This document shows, piece by piece, positions 5,333 through 28,373 of a stretch of DNA of 32,932 bases. Every line of letters begins with the position of its first letter. The stretch's first letter is position 1. The notes under the pieces are model-generated. The model was not told where the DNA came from and did no database searches. It saw nothing but the letters and a program-made list of their open reading frames with translations. A program made the position numbers and the translations under genes. This stretch comes from Chlorobiota bacterium (GTDB taxonomy: Bacteria; Bacteroidota; Bacteroidia; Bacteroidales; Prolixibacteraceae), in contig JAADGO010000069.1 of NCBI GenBank assembly GCA_013152355.1, forward strand, positions 1 through 32,932, read 5' to 3'.

Positions 5333-6055
5333 ATGGCGGTTTTATTAGAAACGAAATGTGATAATTGCATTAATAATTGCTGCGCAGTTTGTGTTAAAGA
5401 ACACCAAAGCAGTGTTTTTTCAATTCTTCAAAAAGAAGATTTGGATATATTAATGGAAAATAAACAGGAAATTTTATTTAAGCCGGGAGAAACTATACTA
5501 AAACAGAATACTTCTTCCACACATGTTGTTTGTATAAAAAAAGGGCTTGCCAAAGTTTATATTGAGGGGATGAAAGGGAAAAGCCTCATTATAAAATTAA
5601 TTGGCGACCTTGACTTTATAACAGGAGGAGGTATTTTTGCAAACCATACCAGGCGTTTTACTGTTTCTGCTTTAACCAATGTAGAATGTTGCTTTATTAA
5701 CTCAGAACAAATCCTCAAACTCTTTTCGAAAAACAGTGAATTTGCATTAGAGATTATGAAATACCATAATGACCAAAACAACCAGATGTTAAATTCCCTG
5801 ATAAACCTTACCCAAAAATATATGCCAGGCAGGGTTGCAGACTCCCTTCTTTACCTAAAAAACGAAATTTTCAAAACAAGTTCCTTTCAACTTCCGTTAA
5901 ACAGGCAGGAACTTGCAGAAATGTCAGCTATGACAAAAGAGAGTTATGTCCGTATTTTAAAAGAGTTTAAAACCTCAGGGGTTATAAAACATATCAGGAA
6001 CTCAATGGTAATTCTCGATGAAAAAGCACTTGTGTCAATTAGTAAAAATGGTTAA
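5333..6055 (+). CDS. Crp/Fnr family transcriptional regulator with N-terminal Cys cluster
   Basis: A 240-residue regulator: a cyclic-nucleotide-binding-type beta barrel (about 35-125), a dimerisation helix, and a C-terminal winged helix-turn-helix (LPLNRQELAEMSAMTKESYVRILKEF). The recognition helix keeps Glu and Arg spaced as in CRP (E-x3-R), suggesting contact with a TGA half-site. The first 20 residues hold five cysteines (C9, C12, C16, C17, C20), and a CC pair sits at 119-120 close to where E. coli FNR has its fourth cluster ligand. An Fe-S or other thiol sensor is therefore possible. The 145 bp upstream hold no clear promoter. It directly precedes the cytochrome locus, a natural target. 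Confidence 0.88.
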   Translation: MAVLLETKCDNCINNCCAVCVKEHQSSVFSILQKEDLDILMENKQEILFKPGETILKQNTSSTHVVCIKKGLAKVYIEGMKGKSLIIKLIGDLDFITGGGIFANHTRRFTVSALTNVECCFINSEQILKLFSKNSEFALEIMKYHNDQNNQMLNSLINLTQKYMPGRVADSLLYLKNEIFKTSSFQLPLNRQELAEMSAMTKESYVRILKEFKTSGVIKHIRNSMVILDEKALVSISKNG

Positions 6056-6232: not shown

Positions 6233-7312
6233 ATGAAATCATTAAAAATATTTAAACTTATTATTTTGGCATTTGCATGTTTAGCTATTACAGTATCGTG
6301 TGTAAAAGAAGGGCCTATAGGTCCGGCTGGTGCAGACGGAGCAGATGGGGCGGACGGCACTGATGGCCAAAATGGAGTTGATGGTAATATAACCTGTTTA
6401 GTATGCCACTCTGGAAGTAATATGGACGAAAAGGAGGCTCAATTTTCTTTGTCTGAACACAAAAGCGGCGAGAATGCCGTAGCGTATGCCGGTGGGCGTG
6501 CCAGTTGTGCCAGATGCCACTCTCACGAAGGGTTTGTCCAATATGCTGAGTTTGGTAAAGTGCTGGGGGATATTTCAGCCCCAAGTGCATGGGAATGTGG
6601 GACATGCCATGGACTGCATAAAACATTTGAATCAACCGATTATGCCCTTAGGTTGTCTGACCCGGTTGTTTCTCTTTTTGACCCGAATGTAACAATGGAC
6701 CTTGGTGGCAACAGTAACCTTTGCGCCAATTGCCACCAGTCGAGAAAGCCCGGCCCGGTGGACGAAGACCAGTATAACAGGAAAGGTACTCTTGTTGATG
6801 CTGCCGGCAATGGGTTATATGCAATTACCAGTGTTTACTACGGGCCTCACCATGGACCACAGGCCAATGTAGTTGCAGGAGTCGGATTTGTCGAAATCCC
6901 AGGCTCTGTTACTTACCCTCAACCGGGTTCTTCAATACATTTAAACCAGGCATCGTGTACCGGCTGCCACATGGCCGAATTCTCAAACGGGCAGGGCGGG
7001 CATACCTGGAACCCCAGCCTTGATGCCTGCAATGCCTGCCACGGCGTAGATGAAAAAGATTTCAATTATGGAGGTATGCAAACAAACATAAATGCAAGGC
7101 TTGAAGAACTAAGAGATAAACTGGTAGAACTGGGAGTTGTAGAATGGGTTGAAGAGGAAGGCGAATTTAAGCCGGTAGTTGGGACATACCCAATGCTTCA
7201 GGTACAGGCTTTCTTTAACTGGACCGGCCTTGACGAAGACCGCAGTTTAGGAGTGCATAATCCAAAGTATGTTAATGCCTTATTGATCAATACTCTGGAA
7301 GCCCTTCAATAA
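6233..7312 (+). CDS. hexaheme cytochrome c lipoprotein with collagen-like stalk
   Basis: A 359-residue exported lipoprotein. A signal peptide ends in a lipobox (AITVSC, acylated Cys at about 23). Eight collagen-type Gly-X-Y triplets follow at once (GPIGPAGADGADGADGTDG and onward). The rest carries six CXXCH heme c motifs: CLVCH, CARCH, CGTCH, CANCH, CTGCH and CNACH, with several extra His as likely distal ligands. The lipoprotein signal and stalk suggest an outer-membrane or cell-surface electron carrier. I do not recognise a catalytic family; there is no CXXCK motif. The gene follows the Crp/Fnr regulator by 177 bp and ends at a hairpin terminator. A c-type cytochrome is certain; location and role are inferred. 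Confidence 0.9.
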   Translation: MKSLKIFKLIILAFACLAITVSCVKEGPIGPAGADGADGADGTDGQNGVDGNITCLVCHSGSNMDEKEAQFSLSEHKSGENAVAYAGGRASCARCHSHEGFVQYAEFGKVLGDISAPSAWECGTCHGLHKTFESTDYALRLSDPVVSLFDPNVTMDLGGNSNLCANCHQSRKPGPVDEDQYNRKGTLVDAAGNGLYAITSVYYGPHHGPQANVVAGVGFVEIPGSVTYPQPGSSIHLNQASCTGCHMAEFSNGQGGHTWNPSLDACNACHGVDEKDFNYGGMQTNINARLEELRDKLVELGVVEWVEEEGEFKPVVGTYPMLQVQAFFNWTGLDEDRSLGVHNPKYVNALLINTLEALQ

Positions 7313-7391: not shown

Positions 7392-7790
7392 ATGAAAAAA
7401 CTAAAGTTATTACTTCCAATAATAATCCTTTTTATTACGTTTAGTGCATGTAAATACGATTTTATCCTTCCTGAAGAGATTCCGGTGATCGACCCGGATA
7501 ATCCGACAGCAGAGATTTTTGGATTCGCGGAATATGTATTGCCAATATTTAATAAGAATGACAATTGTACTTCCTGCCATAAAACAGGGGGGCAATTGCC
7601 TGACCTTACTACTGAAAAAGCATACTCCTCACTTAACAGCGCAAGGTATATCAACCTGTCATCACCAGAACAGAGTAAAATCTATACTCATCCTTTGCCT
7701 GGTACAAGTACACATAAACATAAAAAATATACAGCTCAAGAAGCAGCTATAATACTTGCATGGATTAAGCAGGGAGCTAAAAACAACTAA
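7392..7790 (+). CDS. monoheme cytochrome c-like lipoprotein
   Basis: A 132-residue lipoprotein with a signal peptide ending FSAC (Cys at about 20). It has one heme motif, NCTSCHKTGG at about 56-60, preceded by AEYVLPIFNKN, a pattern of small class I c-type or planctomycete-type domains in which an open hole for metabolites precedes CxxCH. A C-terminal TAQEAAIILAWIKQGAKNN resembles the end of such cytochrome domains. It is probably anchored at the periplasmic or outer face of the envelope. It starts 27 bp after a terminator-like hairpin and is followed after 24 bp by the DUF5777 barrel gene, so the two are likely co-transcribed. Confidence 0.82.
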   Translation: MKKLKLLLPIIILFITFSACKYDFILPEEIPVIDPDNPTAEIFGFAEYVLPIFNKNDNCTSCHKTGGQLPDLTTEKAYSSLNSARYINLSSPEQSKIYTHPLPGTSTHKHKKYTAQEAAIILAWIKQGAKNN

Positions 7791-7814: not shown

Positions 7815-8768
7815 ATGAAAAAAACATTTATCCTAATTATATTTACCGCCCTTACATTTAGTAGTGTGGTAGCACAGAAAGACAGCATACCAAAAGAAAG
7901 AGTAAAAGACGTACCGGTTTGGCTACCTTTCGAAAGCGGTTATTTAATTGATAATCAAACTTCTGTTATCCCAGCGGTAAAAACACTCGAATATGTTATT
8001 CAACACAAATTTGGGAATACGGAAAACGGCAGGTCTGATTTGTGGGGTATTTATGCTCCGGGCGCAAATATCAGGCTAGGGCTCAATTATGTACTGGCCA
8101 AGAACTTTCAGATAGGTGTTGGCATTACAAAAAAAAATAAATACAGTGACTTTAGTGCAAAATGGACAATCTTGGAACAAACCCGGAAAAACCAGGTACC
8201 GGTTGCGGTTACTTTGTACGGAAACCTTGCTATTGACGGCAGGGACATCAGTGCATTTGAAACCGGGAAGGTACAACGTGCCTTCCATGTCAATGAACAA
8301 TACAGTTATAAATTCCCTGACAGGATATCTTATTTCTCCCAGTTAATTATCGGAAGGAAATTTACAGATTGGCTATCGTTGCAAACAGCAATAAGCTTTA
8401 CGCACTATAATGCTACCAGGATTACCAGTGTCCAGGTTGCAGACGGCAGGTACATTGCCGAAGACCATGATAAAATTGGATTGCACTTTAGCGGGCGGGC
8501 AAGGATTTCTCCTCAATCCTCGTTAATTTTTAATTATGATATCCCTTTGAAAATAAAAAATATCTCGGAAGAGATCGAATGGCTTGATTATCCGCGCCCA
8601 AATTTAGCATTTGGGATTGAAATATCTACCGGCACCCATGTATTCCAGATTTACATGGGTACTGCTGATGGGATAATCCCACAAGATGTAATTTTATACA
8701 ACCAAAATGACTGGAAGAATGGTGGCTTAGCTATAGGTTTTACAATTACAAGGCTTTGGGAGTTTTGA
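7815..8768 (+). CDS. DUF5777 family beta-barrel outer-membrane protein
   Basis: A 317-residue protein with a signal peptide (cleavage near SSVVAQ). The rest alternates short amphipathic strands and turns and ends with an aromatic residue (TRLWEF), as expected for an outer-membrane barrel. The region from ETSV-like YLIDNQTSV to HKFGN and LWGIYAPGANIRLGLNY is what I associate with DUF5777. The family is of unknown function and in Bacteroidota is often near cytochrome and YceI genes. It sits between lipoprotein cytochromes and inner-membrane cytochromes, so a role in an envelope-spanning electron path is possible but unproven. There are no heme motifs of its own. Confidence 0.8.
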   Translation: MKKTFILIIFTALTFSSVVAQKDSIPKERVKDVPVWLPFESGYLIDNQTSVIPAVKTLEYVIQHKFGNTENGRSDLWGIYAPGANIRLGLNYVLAKNFQIGVGITKKNKYSDFSAKWTILEQTRKNQVPVAVTLYGNLAIDGRDISAFETGKVQRAFHVNEQYSYKFPDRISYFSQLIIGRKFTDWLSLQTAISFTHYNATRITSVQVADGRYIAEDHDKIGLHFSGRARISPQSSLIFNYDIPLKIKNISEEIEWLDYPRPNLAFGIEISTGTHVFQIYMGTADGIIPQDVILYNQNDWKNGGLAIGFTITRLWEF

Positions 8769-8965: not shown

Positions 8966-9901
8966 ATGTCATTCTTTATCCGGGGTTTTATATGTACAAT
9001 ATTACTTCTTCTGTTTACTTTATTTTCAACGCCTCAGAATATTCCCAAAGAAAACATGCATTGCCTAAAATGCCACTCTTCACAAACGTTTACAATATAT
9101 AATAACTGGACAGGGAAAAATGAAAAAAGGTTGATGAACCCTTTTTATATTTTAGACACAGTCAGGCTTGCAACCGGCGTACATAAAGACTTTCAGTGTA
9201 TCGATTGCCACTCGCCAGACTATGAAACATACCCTCATAAGAGTGAATTAAAATTAGAGCCCAAAAGCACATGCCTTGATTGCCATGGCGGTGATGATAC
9301 TTTTGCCTCTTTTCAGTTTGAGAGGATAAAAGAAGAATTTGAAAAAAGCGTGCATTTCACAACCAGCGGAGAAGCTTTTACCTGCTCAAAATGCCATAAC
9401 CAGCATTATTACAAACCTACGGCAAGGAATAGTAGTAATGTGGGGGAAATAGTTGACTTCGATAATGCAATGTGCCTGTCATGCCATAACAATATGACTA
9501 AATACCAACTGGTTTCGACCCATAAGAACCCGCAACTTGTGGAGGTACACAACTGGCTTCCCAACCAGGCACTCCATTTTATGCATGTACGTTGTATAGA
9601 ATGCCACACTGAGGTGATTGATTCTTTGATGGTGTCACACAATATTTTACCGAAAGAGAAGGCTACGCAAAAGTGTGCCGAATGCCATTCTGCCAATTCA
9701 TTGCTCCAGGCATCTCTTTACAAATACAAAAATATCCAATCCAGAACAGAAAAAGGTGCTATTAACAATATCATTTCCAACAAAGCGTATGTAATAGGGG
9801 AAAACCAGATACCATTACTTAATTGGCTTAGCATACTGATTTTCATTGCAACAATTGGGGGGATTGCCCTGCATATTGTTTTTAGAATCATGATAAAATA
9901 A
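8966..9901 (+). CDS. heptaheme cytochrome c with C-terminal membrane anchor (CbcA-like)
   Basis: A 311-residue exported cytochrome with an N-terminal signal sequence and seven CXXCH motifs: CLKCH, CIDCH, CLDCH, CSKCH, CLSCH, CIECH and CAECH. A single C-terminal helix (WLSILIFIATIGGIALHIVF, about 284-305) tethers it to the inner membrane. A membrane cytochrome b gene starts 6 bp later. This pairing, heptaheme c with a C-terminal anchor beside a diheme b subunit, is the layout of Geobacter CbcA and CbcB, a quinol-oxidising bc-type complex. The resemblance is architectural; sequence homology was not tested. Likely role: taking electrons from the b subunit into the periplasm. Confidence 0.85.
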   Translation: MSFFIRGFICTILLLLFTLFSTPQNIPKENMHCLKCHSSQTFTIYNNWTGKNEKRLMNPFYILDTVRLATGVHKDFQCIDCHSPDYETYPHKSELKLEPKSTCLDCHGGDDTFASFQFERIKEEFEKSVHFTTSGEAFTCSKCHNQHYYKPTARNSSNVGEIVDFDNAMCLSCHNNMTKYQLVSTHKNPQLVEVHNWLPNQALHFMHVRCIECHTEVIDSLMVSHNILPKEKATQKCAECHSANSLLQASLYKYKNIQSRTEKGAINNIISNKAYVIGENQIPLLNWLSILIFIATIGGIALHIVFRIMIK

Positions 9902-9907
9902 AGTAAC

Positions 9908-10525
9908 ATGGCAGAAGAAAAACTATATTTATACCCGGTTTGGCTAAGGGCATGGCATGGGATTAATGCTATCGGGATTGTGGTTTTAATTGTAACAGGG
10001 CTTAATATGCAATTCTCAAACCCCGATTATTCATTTATTAATTTTGAATTAGCAGTTAACCTGCATAATATTTGCGGGATTATTGTTACAATTGGCTACC
10101 TGGTTTTTATTATTGGCAACATAGCAACACCCAATAAAAAATATTACCGGATGAAATGGAAGGGGCTGCGCAAAAGATTATTCAAACAATTCCGGTTTTA
10201 TACACAGGGGATGTTTAAAGGCGAAAAACCACCGTTCCCTGTTTCAGAGAAAAGGAAATTCAACCCACTTCAAAAATTCTCGTATGTTGTGGTAATGTAC
10301 CTTTTTGTCCCCATAGCAATTGTTACAGGCATTGCCCTGTTGTTTCCCGAACTAATTATTGAAGAAGTTTATACGGTTAGCGGCATTTTCTTAACGGCAA
10401 TATTGCATGCAAGCATGGGGTTTTTAATTTCAATTTTCTTAATTGTCCATTTGTATGTTGCTTCAATTGGAAAAAATCCGTTAAACAATTTTAAAAGTAT
10501 AATAACAGGATGGCATCACGCTTAA
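9908..10525 (+). CDS. diheme-type cytochrome b membrane subunit (CbcB/HydB-like)
   Basis: A 205-residue integral membrane protein with about four transmembrane helices. Heme b ligand candidates are placed as in the Ni,Fe-hydrogenase/formate-dehydrogenase-gamma b family: RAWHGINA in helix 1, NLHNICG in helix 2, and LHASMGF and IVHLYVA in the last two. It begins 6 bp after the heptaheme gene and ends 27 bp before the preferred start of the 19-heme gene. It should oxidise menaquinol and pass electrons to the heptaheme partner. A hydrogenase or formate dehydrogenase role is unlikely because no such catalytic subunits are nearby. Confidence 0.85.
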   Translation: MAEEKLYLYPVWLRAWHGINAIGIVVLIVTGLNMQFSNPDYSFINFELAVNLHNICGIIVTIGYLVFIIGNIATPNKKYYRMKWKGLRKRLFKQFRFYTQGMFKGEKPPFPVSEKRKFNPLQKFSYVVVMYLFVPIAIVTGIALLFPELIIEEVYTVSGIFLTAILHASMGFLISIFLIVHLYVASIGKNPLNNFKSIITGWHHA

Positions 10526-10552
10526 ACGTGATTCTTTTTGATAACCAGGGTG

Positions 10553-13354
10553 ATGACTACTGTTTCAAACGATAAAATTATGATGAGATATTATACAATC
10601 ATATTGTTCGCAATAATGATGTTTTTAGGGGTAAACAACTTGTCGGCACAATCGGATGAAGACTGTTTTATGTGCCATGATGACCCTGAAATAACTTCGG
10701 AGAAACCCGGCAAAAAAGTTTCATTATATATACCTCCCAACGCCCTGGCACATTCGGTTCATAAAAACGTATCGTGTGGGTCATGCCATACCGATGCTGC
10801 TGTTGAAGATTTCCCGCACCCCGAAACCCTAAAGCCTGTAAATTGTGGGATTTGCCATGAGAAAGCCCAGTCCGATTTTTTAAGGGGATACCATGGCCGG
10901 GCATTTCAATTAAAAGACAAGAATGCCCCAGATTGCAAGGATTGCCATGGAACTCATGAAATAATCAAATCGGACCAACCCGAATCACAGACTTATAAAA
11001 TGAATATCCCTTTTTTATGTGGGTCGTGCCATAAGGAGGGAGCACCTGTTTCAAGGTCATATAATATCCAGGAACATAATATTGTTGAAAATTACAGCCA
11101 GGGTATCCACGGCAAGGGGTTATTCAAAAGCGGGCTTATTGTTACTGCTACCTGTAACGATTGCCATGGGAACCACCTTATCCTTCCCCATACAAATATA
11201 AATTCCAGTATCTCATCGAAGAACATTGCATCTACCTGTATGAAATGCCATGCCAGGATTGAAGATGTCCATGTAAAAGTGATAAATAAGAAATTATGGG
11301 AGAAAAAACCCGGTGCAATCCCGGCATGTACCGATTGCCATCCTCCGCATAAAGTTGAAATGCAAAATATATTGTCCACGATTTCTGATAAAACCTGCCT
11401 GAGATGCCATGATAAAGAAGATATACACATGGTTGTGGACAATAAGGAAGTTTCATTAAAAGTTGATGTTTCGGAACTAGCTGTTTCGGCCCATAAGAAT
11501 ATCACTTGTGTGAAATGCCATTCCGATGTAACAGCCAATTTACAACGCCCTTGCAAAACAGCAGATAAGGTCGATTGTTCCAACTGCCATGCAGAAGAGG
11601 CTGATATTTATTTTTCAAGTGGCCATGGGCAGGCTTATTTTAATAAAAAAGAAAATGCCCCTTATTGTACCGATTGCCATGGAACCCACCTCGTAAAACT
11701 CAAATCTGATGAAAGTTCCCCTGTATACAGGTCGGCAATCCCCTCCCTTTGTGGCAAATGCCACAGGAAAAACGGCAAAGCAACTGAAGGGACTCACCTT
11801 AATGAAATAGATGCATTCCATGACTATTCAACAAGTGTACATGGCAGGAGCCTTTCGGAAAAAGGATTGCTTTCGACAGCTGTTTGTACCGATTGCCATA
11901 CAACACATCACATGTTGAAAGAATCTGACGACAGGTCCTCGGTAAACCCCAAAAATATTGCTGCCACATGTGGGAATTGCCATAAGGGTATCTATAATGA
12001 ATATATTGCCAGTGACCACGCATACAAAGAAGAAGAAGGTGGCTTAAAATACCCGACCTGTGGGACATGCCACAAAGCACATTATATCTCAGAAGTACAT
12101 CAGGATAAATTTATGTCGGAAATAACAACGCAATGTGGGCAATGCCATTCCGATTTAGCTGAAACATACCTGGAGACATATCATGGAAAGGTTTACCAGT
12201 TAGGGTACTTAGAAGCTGCGAAGTGTTCCGATTGCCATGGAGCCCATAAGATCCTGAAAATGGATAACCCGGATTCATCAATTGGCCCTCTGAACATTGT
12301 GGCAACCTGCCGGAAATGCCATGTCGATGCAAACATGAAATTTACGGGTTACTTAACACATGCCACCCATTATAATAAAAGTAAGTTCCCCTGGCTCTAT
12401 TATACATTTTGGGCAATGACCGGTTTACTTATTAGTGTATTTGTCTTTTTTGGGCTACATACCCTTTTATGGCTGCCACAGTCGATCATTGCCATGCTCA
12501 GGAAGAAACGCCATGTAAAAAAGGCTGGTAAAAAAGAATTTATCCGGCGTTTCTCCAAAAGCCAGCGTGTTACCCATATTTTTGTAATTGTCAGCTTTTT
12601 ATTATTGGCATTAACAGGGATGATGCTGAAATTTGCCTATATGGAATGGGCTAAAACATTGGCTAAATTTATAGGAGGGGCATTTGTTGCAGGAGTTATC
12701 CACCGTATTGCGGCAGTTATCACTTTTGGGTATTTCGGATTCCATGTATTTTCATTGCTCCGGATTAAATTCAAAAGAGGTGTTAAATTCAAAAAATTTA
12801 TTTTTGGAAGTAACTCGCTGATGTTTAACCGTCAGGATATAAGAGATTTCTGGGCATCAATAAAATGGTTTACAGGAAGAGGCCCACGCCCATCCTACGG
12901 ACGCTGGACATACTGGGAGAAATTTGACTACATGGCGGTTTTCTGGGGTGTCGTTATTATTGGCTCAACAGGGTTGGTACTCTGGTTCCCCGAATTCTTC
13001 ACCATGATATTCCCGGGCTGGATAATCAATGTTGCCCAAATCATACATAGTGACGAGGCATTGCTGGCTGTTGGGTTTATCTTTACAATTCATTTCTTTA
13101 ATACCCACCTGCGGCCTGAATCATTCCCTATGGATACAGTTATTTTTACAGGATATGTCCCGCTCGAAGAATATAAGGAAGACAGGCCACGGGAATATGA
13201 GGAACTGGAGAAATCAGGGAAATTAAAGGATGTTATTGTTAAAACTGAGTTCTCGAAACAACGGATGAGGCTTGTGAAATTTTTCGGGTTTATTTTCTTG
13301 TTTACAGGAATAGTCCTTACCATTCTAATCCTATATTCGTTGCTTACTCATTAA
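10553..13354 (+). CDS. 19-heme cytochrome c fused to membrane cytochrome b (CbcL-like)
   Basis: A very large bc-type fusion of about 930 residues. After a signal peptide ([23 protein letters not shown]) come 19 CXXCH motifs between residues 43 and 595 (numbered from TTG 10538). The c region is internally repeated: hemes 1-8 align with 9-16, and 17-19 align with 5-7 and 13-15. From about residue 612 there are membrane helices with His residues as in diheme b cytochromes ([36 protein letters not shown]). Geobacter CbcL has the same order with nine c hemes. There is no CXXCK, so a nitrite reductase is unlikely. The track starts at TTG; ATG 10553 is chosen, but ATG 10580 would give the most typical signal peptide. 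Confidence 0.88.
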
Positions 13355-14099: not shown

Positions 14100-15605
14100 A
14101 TGAAACTACCATCATCAGTTAAAAACTGGGTGTCAATAGTAGGTGCAGTACTGGCCATTTTTAACCTGGCAAGCATTCTGTCATTATTTATTTTACATTC
14201 ATTTTTTAATTTCGGAGGATCTTATATTGGCTTGTTTATTTATATTGTATTGCCTGCATTTATGATTACAGGGCTAATACTTATCCCTATCGGGATGAGG
14301 TTAAACAGCCGCAAAACAAGAAAAGCTAAAAAAGAAGATGAAGGCAAAAGCTGGCCAATTATTAATTTTAATAATGTTGCAACACGTAATGTATCAATAA
14401 TTTTCGTCCTTGGCACTATCTTCCTTCTTATAATCTCATCGATAGGGAGTTATGAAGCATTTCATTATACCGAGTCGGTTGAGTTTTGTGGGAAATTATG
14501 CCACCGGGTGATGGAGCCGGAGTATACAGCATACCATTCTTCTTCGCATGAGCGTGTTGCTTGTGTTGAATGCCACGTTGGGTCGGGTGCAAGTTGGTAT
14601 GTTAAAAGTAAACTTTCGGGTTTATACCAGGTTTATGCTGTGTTAACAGATGCCTATCCACGTCCGATCCCTACTCCTGTTCACAACCTGCGCCCGGCAC
14701 AGGAAACCTGCGAACAATGCCATTGGCCCGAGAAATTTTATGACAGGAAATTGCTACTCGAAAAGTCGTACCTTGCCGATGAGAAAAATACTGAATGGAA
14801 TATTCAGATGCAAATGAAAACCAGTTCAAGGGTTACTTCGGAAGGATTGGTGGAAAAAGGGATTCACCAACATATTAACCCAGACATCAAGATAGAGTAT
14901 AAAACTTCTGCTGCCAACAGGCAGGTAATCCCCTGGGTTAAATATACCAATATCAAAACAGGTTTTAGCGAGATATATACAGATAAAGAGAATATGTTAA
15001 GCCAGGCAGAACTTGACTCGATTAAACCCAGGGTAATGGACTGCCTTGATTGCCATAACAGGCCATCGCATAATTATAACGTTCCACAAAACTTTATAGA
15101 TAAACTGATGAGCGATAGGAAGATATCTAAAACTTTACCGGAAATTAAACTGATATCAATGGTCGTATTAAATCAGGAATACCCGGATAAGGACAGTGCA
15201 TTTGTAGCAATAAAAAACCAGGTTACCAAATTTTATGAAAAAAGCTATCCCAGCCTGATAACTGATAGGAAATCTGAGATTGATACTGCAATCATTGAAA
15301 TACAAAACGGGTATGCCAATAATATCTTCCCTGAAATGAAGGTGAGCTGGAAAGCTTATCCAAACAATATTGGCCACATGGAATCGGATGGTTGTTTCAG
15401 GTGCCATAACAACCGGCACTCAACAGAGTCTGGCAAGGTAATATCAAAGGATTGTAATTTGTGCCATATAATTACTGCGCAGGGGACAACAGAAAATATG
15501 GATTATTCCAACTCATCTGAACCACTTGAGTTCAAACACCCGGTTGATATTGACCAGGCCTGGCGTACCGAACCCTGTTCAATGTGCCATTCGGAACTAT
15601 ATTAA
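14100..15605 (+). CDS. NapC/NirT-type heptaheme cytochrome c (ImcH-like)
   Basis: A 501-residue membrane cytochrome with three transmembrane helices (about 10-35, 42-66 and 97-117), then a periplasmic multiheme domain. The first heme site is an atypical CX3CH, CGKLCH at C130-H135, followed by RVMEPEYTAYHSS. Six CXXCH follow: CVECH, CEQCH, CLDCH, CFRCH, CNLCH and CSMCH. Three helices, seven heme sites and about 500 residues is the layout of Geobacter ImcH, a quinol-to-periplasm electron donor. NapC/NrfH proteins share the N-terminal region but are shorter and tetraheme. It is separated from the upstream operon by 745 bp with its own likely promoter, and ends at a hairpin terminator. Confidence 0.87.
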   Translation: MKLPSSVKNWVSIVGAVLAIFNLASILSLFILHSFFNFGGSYIGLFIYIVLPAFMITGLILIPIGMRLNSRKTRKAKKEDEGKSWPIINFNNVATRNVSIIFVLGTIFLLIISSIGSYEAFHYTESVEFCGKLCHRVMEPEYTAYHSSSHERVACVECHVGSGASWYVKSKLSGLYQVYAVLTDAYPRPIPTPVHNLRPAQETCEQCHWPEKFYDRKLLLEKSYLADEKNTEWNIQMQMKTSSRVTSEGLVEKGIHQHINPDIKIEYKTSAANRQVIPWVKYTNIKTGFSEIYTDKENMLSQAELDSIKPRVMDCLDCHNRPSHNYNVPQNFIDKLMSDRKISKTLPEIKLISMVVLNQEYPDKDSAFVAIKNQVTKFYEKSYPSLITDRKSEIDTAIIEIQNGYANNIFPEMKVSWKAYPNNIGHMESDGCFRCHNNRHSTESGKVISKDCNLCHIITAQGTTENMDYSNSSEPLEFKHPVDIDQAWRTEPCSMCHSELY

Positions 15606-25520: not shown

Positions 25521-26984
25521 ATGCAAAACCGCAGGTTTAATTTATTCCTGATTGTTTACTTTATCTCTTTAATACTGCTAATAGAGAGCCTCTTCTTCCT
25601 TTTAGCTGTAATTGTATCGTTCATTTACCGGGAAGCGATAAGAGAAGATATGATATATTCTTTCCTTGTTTTATTTATCCCCGGGGTGACGCTCTATATT
25701 GCAACTTTCAATAAAAAAATCAATAACATAACACGGAAAGAGAGCATACTGATTGTGGGTTCAGGATGGATTATTATGGCTCTTTTAGGGGCACTGCCAT
25801 ATATAATTACACAAACAATACCCCGGTTTAGTGATGCCTTTTTCGAGTCAATGTCAGGATTTACCACTACAGGGTCTTCTATCCTTAGGGATATTGAATC
25901 ATTGCCCCGAAGTATATTATTTTGGCGGAGTGAAACAAACTGGATTGGTGGTATGGGTATTATTGTACTGATAATTGCATTGGCTCCTATTGTGGCAGGC
26001 AACAGCAACTATTTGTATGGCTCGGAAATGTCGAATGTGGCAGATGAGAAGCTTATGGCCCGCTTTAAACAAAACGCACGGAATCTTTGGCTGGTGTATG
26101 TTGGCTTAACGGTTGCCGAAACAGTTATCCTTTATGGTGCAGGATTGTCATTCCTTGATAGTTTATGCCATTCGTTTTCGACAATAGCAACCGGCGGGTT
26201 TTCAATGAAGAATGCGAGTATTGCTGCCTACTCGCCTTTAATCCAATATATTGTTATGGTTTTTATGCTTCTGTCGGGCATGAACTTTACATTGCATGTA
26301 CTCAGCATCAGGAAACAGTTTAAAAAAGTAATCAAAAATGAAGAACTGCAACTGTACCTGTTCATTGTTGTTTTCACAGGGGCAGCTATTACTTTACAAC
26401 TGTTTTTTTGGAAGTCACTTCCACTTGAGGTTGCTTTCCGCGATGCCTTTTTTCAGGTTATCTCGGTCATTACAGCTACCGGTTTTACAACATCCGACTA
26501 TTTGGTCTGGCCAACAAGTGCTATTGCCATAATAATGTTATTGATGTTTATTGGTGCTTCTTCCGGTTCTACAGGAGGAGGGGTTAAAGTAATCAGGAAC
26601 CTGATTGCATTTAAAAAGATTAACATGCTGTTTAAGCAGATATTTTATCCAAAGGCAATCAATCAGATCAGGTATAATGGGCAGATATTGAAGAACCCAC
26701 AGGTCAACAGCATACTTGCATTTATAATATTATATTATTTTATCCTCGGGTTCGGCACACTGGTAATGTTAACGTTAGGGTTGGACAAGGCTACATCTTT
26801 TGGGGCAGTAATCACTACAATGGGAGGTGTTGGCCCCGGGTTCGGCATGGTAGGGCCTGCCGGCAACTTTGCAGATATTCCTGAATTTGGGAAATTTTTC
26901 CTTACAATAATCATGGTGTTAGGGCGCCTTGAAATTTACCCTGTACTAATTTTATTTACCCCCTGGTTTTGGAGGAACAGTTAA
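25521..26984 (+). CDS. trkH: TrkH family potassium uptake protein
   Basis: A 487-residue integral membrane protein of the TrkH/KtrB superfamily, the channel-like subunit for K+ (or Na+-coupled K+) import. Selectivity-filter type segments recur as in this family: SMSGFTTTGSSI, FSTIATGGFSMKN, VISVITATGFTTSD and TTMGGVGPGFG, with SSGSTGGGVKVIRN also typical. The end, GRLEIYPVLILFTPWFW, is characteristic. The cytosolic TrkA gating partner is not in this window. Its stop codon overlaps the stop of the phosphoglucosamine mutase gene on the other strand by 4 bp. Confidence 0.93.
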   Translation: MQNRRFNLFLIVYFISLILLIESLFFLLAVIVSFIYREAIREDMIYSFLVLFIPGVTLYIATFNKKINNITRKESILIVGSGWIIMALLGALPYIITQTIPRFSDAFFESMSGFTTTGSSILRDIESLPRSILFWRSETNWIGGMGIIVLIIALAPIVAGNSNYLYGSEMSNVADEKLMARFKQNARNLWLVYVGLTVAETVILYGAGLSFLDSLCHSFSTIATGGFSMKNASIAAYSPLIQYIVMVFMLLSGMNFTLHVLSIRKQFKKVIKNEELQLYLFIVVFTGAAITLQLFFWKSLPLEVAFRDAFFQVISVITATGFTTSDYLVWPTSAIAIIMLLMFIGASSGSTGGGVKVIRNLIAFKKINMLFKQIFYPKAINQIRYNGQILKNPQVNSILAFIILYYFILGFGTLVMLTLGLDKATSFGAVITTMGGVGPGFGMVGPAGNFADIPEFGKFFLTIIMVLGRLEIYPVLILFTPWFWRNS

Positions 26985-28373
26985 TGTGCAGGGAAAAATG
27001 ATTTTATCTCTGAAATAATCTTCTGTGCCAATGCTTCCGCCTCGTCCATCGATTTTGCTTCTGAATAAATACGGATTATCAGTTCTGTATTTGATTTTCG
27101 CAAGTGTACCCACGAATCGGCAAAGTCAATCTTCACCCCGTCAATGTCGGATACCTGTTCGTTTTGGTATTTTTCTTTCATTTTTGCAAGGATACCATCC
27201 ACATCAATCTCCGGGGTCAGTTCAATTTTATTTTTTGAGATAAAATAATTGGGGTATGTTTTCCTAAGTTCAGAACATTTTAACCCGCTTTTGGCAAGGA
27301 GAGTCAAAAACAGGGCAACTCCCACCAGTGCATCGCGTCCGCAATGGCTTTCGGGGTATATTATCCCCCCGTTACCTTCGCCGCCTATCACGGCATTGGT
27401 TTCTTTCATTGTTGCCACAACGTTTACCTCGCCAACAGCAGAGGCTGCATAGCTTTGCCCATGTTTTTCGGTTATGTCGCGCAATGCCCGGCTCGATGAT
27501 AAATTGGAGACAGTGTTACCCGGGGCCTGGCTGAGGATATAATCAGCAACGGCAACTAATGTATATTCTTCGTTGAACATTGTCCCGTCTTCATTAATAA
27601 TAGCCAGCCTGTCGACATCAGGGTCTACAACAAACCCCACGTCAACGCCTTTTTTACGGATTATTGCCGAAGTTTCCACGAGGTTTTCAGGGATTGGCTC
27701 AGGTGTATGGGCAAAATGCCCGTTAGGTTCGCAATTAATTTCAACAACCTCTTTTACGCCCAATGCTTTGAGTAATAGGGGAATGACAATCCCCCCAACC
27801 GAATTAACCGCATCAATGGCTACTTTAAAGCCGGCTTTTTTAATGGCCTCAACATCTACTAAAGCCAGGGGCAAGTACCTGCTCTATATGAGCCGAAGTG
27901 TAATCTTTTTTTGTAACTGCCCCAAGGTAATCAACTTCAACAAAATCAAAATCTTCGGCATCTGCTATTTCAAGGACTCTTGCCCCCTCTTCAGCGTTCA
28001 GGAACTCCCCTTTATTGTTCAGCAATTTTAATGCATTCCACTGCTTTGGGTTATGGCTGGCAGTAAGGATAATCCCACCATCGGCATTTTCTCCGGTCAC
28101 GGCAATTTCGGTGGTAGGTGTAGTTGCAAGCCCGATATTCACCACATCGCAACCCATGGCTACAAGGGTAGATATTACCAATGAACTAACCATTTCTCCT
28201 GATATCCTGGCATCGCGGCCAACCACAAGGGTTAATTTATTCTTTGAAGTTGCCGATTTAGCCCAACTCGTGTAAGCGGCTGTAAATTTTACAACATCTA
28301 AAGGGCTCAGCCCTTCACCGGGCTTACCGCCAATGGTGCCCCTGATTCCGGAAATCGATTTTATTAAGGTCAT
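26981..28373 (-). pseudogene. glmM: phosphoglucosamine mutase, split by a one-base frameshift
   Basis: Two overlapping minus-strand ORFs (28373-27849, 174 aa; 27874-26981, 297 aa) together make one alpha-D-phosphohexomutase. The N-part has the phosphoserine loop GGIILTASHNPKQWNA (S106). The C-part has the metal loop VDPDVDRLA, the sugar loop GGEGNGGIIYPESH and the domain 4 phosphate site. The span of 1393 bp is one more than a multiple of three. In the sense strand GTACTTGCCCCTGG breaks the frame, and removing one C (run at 27868-27871) restores HIEQVLALALVDVEA and a normal enzyme of about 463 residues. The enzyme converts glucosamine-6-phosphate to glucosamine-1-phosphate for UDP-GlcNAc synthesis and is usually essential, so a sequencing error is likely. 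Confidence 0.85.

Follow-up and report, generated by a model that had tools for sequence, protein, structure and literature searches.

Collagen-like segments of bacteria have mostly been discussed for adhesins, spores and phage fibres, and the locus described here raises the question of what such a segment does at the N-terminus of a multihaem cytochrome. The window, meaning the whole stretch of DNA analysed, comprises 32,932 nucleotides of a Chlorobiota bacterium of the family Prolixibacteraceae (contig JAADGO010000069.1, assembly GCA_013152355.1). On its plus strand, an open reading frame for a predicted lipoprotein carries a run of Gly-X-Y triplets directly ahead of six haem-binding motifs, with the following layout:

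6233..7312, +: hexahaem lipoprotein precursor, 359 aa, stop codon included in the coordinates; six CxxCH motifs
6233..6298, +: lipoprotein signal peptide predicted from the sequence, residues 1-22, with a lipobox-like end (...ITVS)
6299..6301, +: Cys23, predicted lipidated +1 Cys, followed by VKE; C[VT]KE in 80 of 99 homologues, CE in 12
6311..6382, +: collagen-like stalk of eight perfect Gly-X-Y triplets; register kept in 99 homologues
6383..6391, +: ninth and last triplet, GNI, in register, one residue ahead of the first haem Cys
6395..6409, +: haem 1 motif CLVCH, presumably an N-terminal haem additional to those of the NrfA core
6506..6520, +: haem 2 motif CARCH, probably at the position of the NrfA catalytic haem, with His for the usual Lys
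6596..6610, +: haem 3 motif CGTCH
6722..6736, +: haem 4 motif CANCH, with an invariant Q and R after it
6848..6853, +: His206-His207 in YGPHHGPQ, from the alignment a candidate distal pocket of an open-coordinated haem
6956..6970, +: haem 5 motif CTGCHM
7028..7042, +: haem 6 motif CNACH
7061..7309, +: C-terminal helical region with an invariant S-x-G-x-H-N, resembling the NrfA/OcwA C-terminus in model and alignment

Read from the N-terminus, the precursor is composed of MKSLKIFKLIILAFACLAITVSC, VKE, the triplets GPI GPA GAD GAD GAD GTD GQN GVD, GNIT and CLVCH. Translation of 6311-6382 returns exactly the eight perfect triplets of the original prediction (GPI, GPA, three GAD, GTD, GQN and GVD); its placement of the repeat between the lipid-anchor Cys and the first haem (VKE before, GNIT after, Cys codon at 6395) and its count of six haems (CxxCH at 6395, 6506, 6596, 6722, 6956 and 7028) were likewise borne out. 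The register is uninterrupted over eight triplets, or nine when GNI is included, as in collagen-like proteins. Given a Gly content of about 9.7% in the heads, eight phased Gly residues at a given site would arise by chance with p of about 8e-9, and 4 of 200,000 shuffles of an equally Gly-rich segment reproduced the phase. The Pfam Collagen model (PF01391) scores 18.8-21 bits on the window stalk (E 0.0014 at 18.8), below the cut-off of 27.2, as is to be expected for so short a run; it matches 10 of 40 homologues at E<=0.001.

Within the family, 100 of 140 genomes gave a homologue of the protein; for the order, the figure is 106 of 393 sampled genomes (about a quarter). Both counts include some weak matches to the N-terminal module alone. 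Sunxiuqinia elliptica, a cultivable relative, is among the bacteria that possess the gene (L003). Stalk statistics were taken from 99 distinct same-order homologues collected from fetched loci; these share kinship, so that the counts are not independent, and their alignment reaches down to about 37% identity. Among 100 intact same-order homologues, 99 carry the stalk at the identical place, with the anchor Cys position kept in all 99 and the Gly register unbroken up to the haem. The stalk starts after CVKE, CTKE or CE, ends one to four residues ahead of the first haem and comprises 6-14 triplets, eight being commonest; departures from Gly in the register are confined to the last four residues before the haem Cys, except in two linkers that have an additional insert at that point. 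Pairwise identity between homologues is 96% at the Gly positions and 43% at the X and Y positions, and the linker length falls into one class modulo 3 in 83 of the 99. The first two triplets are GP-rich, mostly GPM or GPA, and in this resemble a helix cap; Y is Asp in 46% and Asn in 16%, and the net charge lies between -1 and -6 in most linkers.

The search for collagen-repeat cytochromes in other genomes that had been proposed with the original prediction yielded 99 homologues within the order, to which the wider phylum adds short relatives (about 340-420 aa), 16 of 16 with 5-15 triplets. Homologues lacking the repeat, which would speak against that prediction, do exist. The sole intact same-order case is L078 (SCGNETVIDDTCMQCH; L155:4201-5208), whose head is 52% identical and which stands alone, with no DUF5777 gene (see below) within 9 kb; four further exceptions are fragments or broken frames. 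In the phylum sample, all 13 long nonahaem relatives carry an N-terminal region in place of the stalk, beta-rich in our reading of the sequences, and those inspected terminate in a type IX secretion sorting domain. The near-universal retention among the hexahaem proteins suggests that the spacer matters, and a conserved, collagen-like spacer is supported by these observations. In the window genome itself, one nonahaem protein (L154:3117-4916, equivalent to G000:C42:28116-29915) has the C-terminal haem/helix region in common with the hexahaem protein and carries a sorting tail for type IX secretion (PF18962, 46.5 bits), which makes it a candidate for a secreted, OcwA-like cytochrome of the same organism.

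As to the head, the original prediction regarded it as an electron carrier, an assignment that is revised here. Pfam places Cytochrome_C7 (36.5 bits, above the curated cut-off) and PF02335, Cytochrom_C552 (26.0 bits, cut-off 24.1), on the window protein. A single-protein phmmer search against the PDB gave no match, whereas a profile of the head built from 40 homologues retrieved 6i5b_A (E 4.5e-15), 6qvm_A (1.3e-13) and several NrfA structures (about 1e-10 to 1e-11); 6i5b, labelled 'uncharacterized protein' in the PDB file, we take to be the nonahaem OcwA. The likeness to these solved structures extends over the haem core and the C-terminal helices, and sequence comparison assigns the head to the multihaem reductases of the NrfA/OcwA superfamily. 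The window protein contains fourteen His. Invariant in the 40-member alignment are the six CxxCH His, H76, H206, H257 and H342 (54, 184, 235 and 320 in the mature protein) as well as the S-x-G-x-H-N motif, while H236 is present in 38 and H129 in 36 of the 40. In the H206-H207 pair, the first His is found in 40/40 and the second in 32/40, with Tyr in the other 8; in the sequence alignment the pair coincides with the HH of GVHHPQ in 6qvm_A, making its role in the pocket a putative one. These residues suggest that five of the haems are bis-His-coordinated and that the remaining one, probably haem 2 (CARCH), is open. Since the head falls into a reductase superfamily and combines a conserved His-His motif with this probable open haem, a catalytic or terminal-reductase role appears likelier than that of a simple carrier. 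In an AlphaFold2 monomer model of the mature protein (4 sequences), the C-terminal helices are the only part with pLDDT of about 70-89; the mean pLDDT is 40, too poor for a fold search, and a model of the single chain has no bearing on oligomers.

The best profile match, OcwA, is a nonahaem cell-surface terminal reductase of Thermincola potens, with which the window protein shares CxxCH instead of CxxCK at the putative open haem, the C-terminal helices and, as a candidate feature, a His-His pair above an open haem. The available text on OcwA describes a His-His pair above each of two open haems, slow nitrite reduction, hydroxylamine being both reduced and oxidised, and a mixture of monomer and dimer (PMC6703420). 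In contrast to the window protein with its six CxxCH, OcwA has nine haems; it is a Gram-positive cell-surface protein with a beta-sheet domain, and the same portion of the paper mentions no collagen-like element (PMC6703420). With NrfA, the cytochrome c nitrite reductase, the head has in common the order of the last five haems and the S-x-G-x-H-N region, besides the PF02335 match. It differs from the pentahaem enzyme, with its usual CxxCK catalytic haem, in that a motif scan of the window protein found six CxxCH and no CxxCK, and in one extra N-terminal haem, the lipid anchor and the collagen-like stalk. Bacterial collagen-like proteins such as Scl1/Scl2 and Bucl8, the latter a collagen-like outer-membrane efflux component in the text available (PMC7682875), likewise place a Gly-X-Y register beside a folded domain; unlike these, the present family has only 6-14 triplets, scoring below the Pfam Collagen cut-off, and a multihaem cytochrome head.

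How the repeat is to be explained can be weighed against three other readings. That it is a functionless low-complexity product of DNA slippage we regard as very improbable indeed: 9-bp repeats are prone to slippage and the copy number varies from 6 to 14, yet all four Gly codons, and both GAC and GAT, occur among the nine DNA units, a pattern that does not describe a young 9-bp slippage array, and position and register persist across the whole divergence of the alignment. Codon usage and conservation both contradict such an artefact, and it was rejected. The segment might otherwise be a common N-terminal module of Bacteroidales lipoproteins (CxKEGPxGPxGxDG...), selected for export, sorting or protease resistance close to the anchor, with nothing specific to cytochromes. 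Lipoproteins of about 190 aa with unrelated, haem-free heads (L156-L162) do carry the module, i.e. the lipid Cys and GPxGPxGxDG-type triplets (one of them, searched against Pfam, gave no match), and CxKE looks like half of the Capnocytophaga export signal (PMC5080379). We nevertheless consider this explanation improbable: the full export motif is lacking, a scan of the 3.38-Mb genome assembly gave the window stalk as its only collagen-type match at E<=0.1, and nearly every member of this one hexahaem cytochrome family has the stalk.

More serious, and a distinct if minority possibility in our judgement, is that the stalk forms an acidic, Gly-rich tether of one extended, monomeric chain, either disordered or akin to polyproline II, which would keep the head mobile above the membrane and could be swapped for other spacers. 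The stalk is indeed short, strongly acidic and GxD-rich, the nonahaem relatives apparently have beta-rich domains in its place, and one homologue manages without it. Such a tether, however, would not call for the unbroken three-residue spacing of Gly seen in 99 homologues, nor for lengths that share one class modulo 3. Hardly any structure other than the triple helix demands a strict Gly at every third position; together with length change by whole triplets, this spacing fits the needs of a triple helix and not those of a plain flexible linker. Against selection for whole-triplet change it can be held that 9-bp slippage could produce the same pattern, and against the triple helix as best explanation that the stalkless orthologue L078 exists. 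Eight GxD-dominated triplets devoid of hydroxyproline are, moreover, unlikely to be stable alone. Trimeric heads are conceivable because HAO and MccA, members of the same superfamily, are homotrimers; by analogy it counts against a trimer that the nearest relatives of the head are dimers (NrfA) or a monomer/dimer mixture (OcwA). On balance, trimerisation of the stalk is plausible, with arguments about evenly divided.

The gene lies in a cluster on the plus strand, whose members are:

5333..6055, +: Crp/Fnr-type regulator, conserved neighbour
7392..7790, +: monohaem lipoprotein (CTSCH), conserved neighbour
7815..8768, +: DUF5777 outer-membrane beta-barrel (PF19089, 242 bits), conserved neighbour
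8966..9901, +: heptahaem c-type cytochrome with a hydrophobic helix at the C-terminus
9908..10525, +: cytochrome b561-type membrane subunit, quinone side (PF01292, 94 bits), conserved
10538..13354, +: 19-CxxCH cytochrome fused to a cytochrome b domain, in only some clusters
14100..15605, +: NapC/NirT-type membrane cytochrome with six CxxCH (PF03264, 39 bits)

In 19 of 20 long loci, the genes for the hexahaem protein, the monohaem lipoprotein and the DUF5777 barrel are adjacent; the Crp-type gene adjoins the hexahaem gene in these loci, the heptahaem cytochrome and cytochrome b561 come next in nearly all, and a NapC/NirT-type gene is often present. The DUF5777 gene lies inside the fetched flank in 20 of 28 loci across the order, and throughout Bacteroidales it is tightly linked to the two lipoprotein genes, hexahaem and monohaem; no paper naming the domain was found in the literature outside subscription journals. 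By gene content, the cluster looks like a pathway from quinol to the outer membrane. For a porin-cytochrome (MtrAB-type) conduit, in which a large outer-membrane barrel houses a multihaem cytochrome, a barrel gene does lie next to the cytochrome genes, but the AlphaFold2 model of the DUF5777 protein (low confidence, mean pLDDT 46) is small, with about 12 strands, which speaks against an MtrB-like sheath. A cluster of similar make-up in Bacteroidetes_1 has been proposed for extracellular electron transfer; it is uncharacterised and combines multihaem cytochromes with one beta-barrel, the closest resemblance being to hypothetical proteins (PMC8258643). Its likeness to the window cluster is one of make-up by description only, and it differs in having six multihaem genes besides the one barrel and in that collagen-like repeats are unmentioned (PMC8258643). 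The upstream hemerythrin/PAS and cupin genes were considered as conserved partners and discarded, being absent from the 20 loci, and the plasmid collection gave no match. Two split genes may be recorded: the 19-CxxCH fusion gene is divided into two open frames in L107, and a glmM-like phosphoglucosamine/phosphomannomutase gene on the minus strand of the window (26981-28373) is broken into the overlapping ORFs 26981-27874 and 27849-28373 by a frameshift, which is either real or an assembly error.

The original prediction also had the cytochrome displayed at the surface. The optimal motif for surface export of Bacteroidetes lipoproteins is C-X-K-(D/E)2-X (PMC5080379), and the window N-terminus, CVKEG, departs from this optimal signal as it offers one acidic residue only; an SDDDD-type motif is absent from it as well. 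Surface display of the head, which the known export signal does not support, is a tentative hypothesis that we rate somewhat short of even.

Taken together, we propose that the protein acts as a redox enzyme or terminal reductase of the NrfA/OcwA superfamily, anchored by lipid and hung on a collagen-like spacer. At the collagen rise of 0.286 nm per residue, the spacer of about 8 triplets would measure roughly 7 nm if extended. Most likely three such chains would wind into a helix, with nucleation by the head and the crowded lipid anchors, and three heads would be held off the leaflet of the presumed outer membrane. Electrons would pass from the quinol pool via the cytochrome b561/heptahaem or the NapC/NirT-type subunits to the monohaem lipoprotein beside the DUF5777 barrel, from there to the hexahaem head, and finally to a small or extracellular acceptor at the His-His-lined haem. 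This reading as a whole, comprising the lipid-anchored reductase, the three-chain spacer and the electron path fed by the cluster, we judge to be equally open to acceptance and rejection. The farther-reaching view, that Bacteroidota possess a trimeric, collagen-stalked outer-membrane multihaem reductase fed through an undescribed quinol-to-outer-membrane pathway of DUF5777 barrel and monohaem lipoprotein, is rather unlikely to hold in full.

The combination of an NrfA/OcwA-superfamily multihaem lipoprotein with a collagen-like stalk is real, conserved and apparently undescribed: in the literature outside subscription journals, no paper joining collagen-like repeats with multihaem cytochromes was found, and collagen-like, c-type cytochrome and lipoprotein occurred together only in a genome paper with one mention each. 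In the present case, a respiratory-type redox protein has a collagen-like segment as a conserved element, and its gene sits in a conserved cluster. The trimer, if true, would reveal the way in which Bacteroidota place multihaem reductases with respect to the outer membrane, and it would mark a putative electron-transfer cluster with a DUF5777 barrel.
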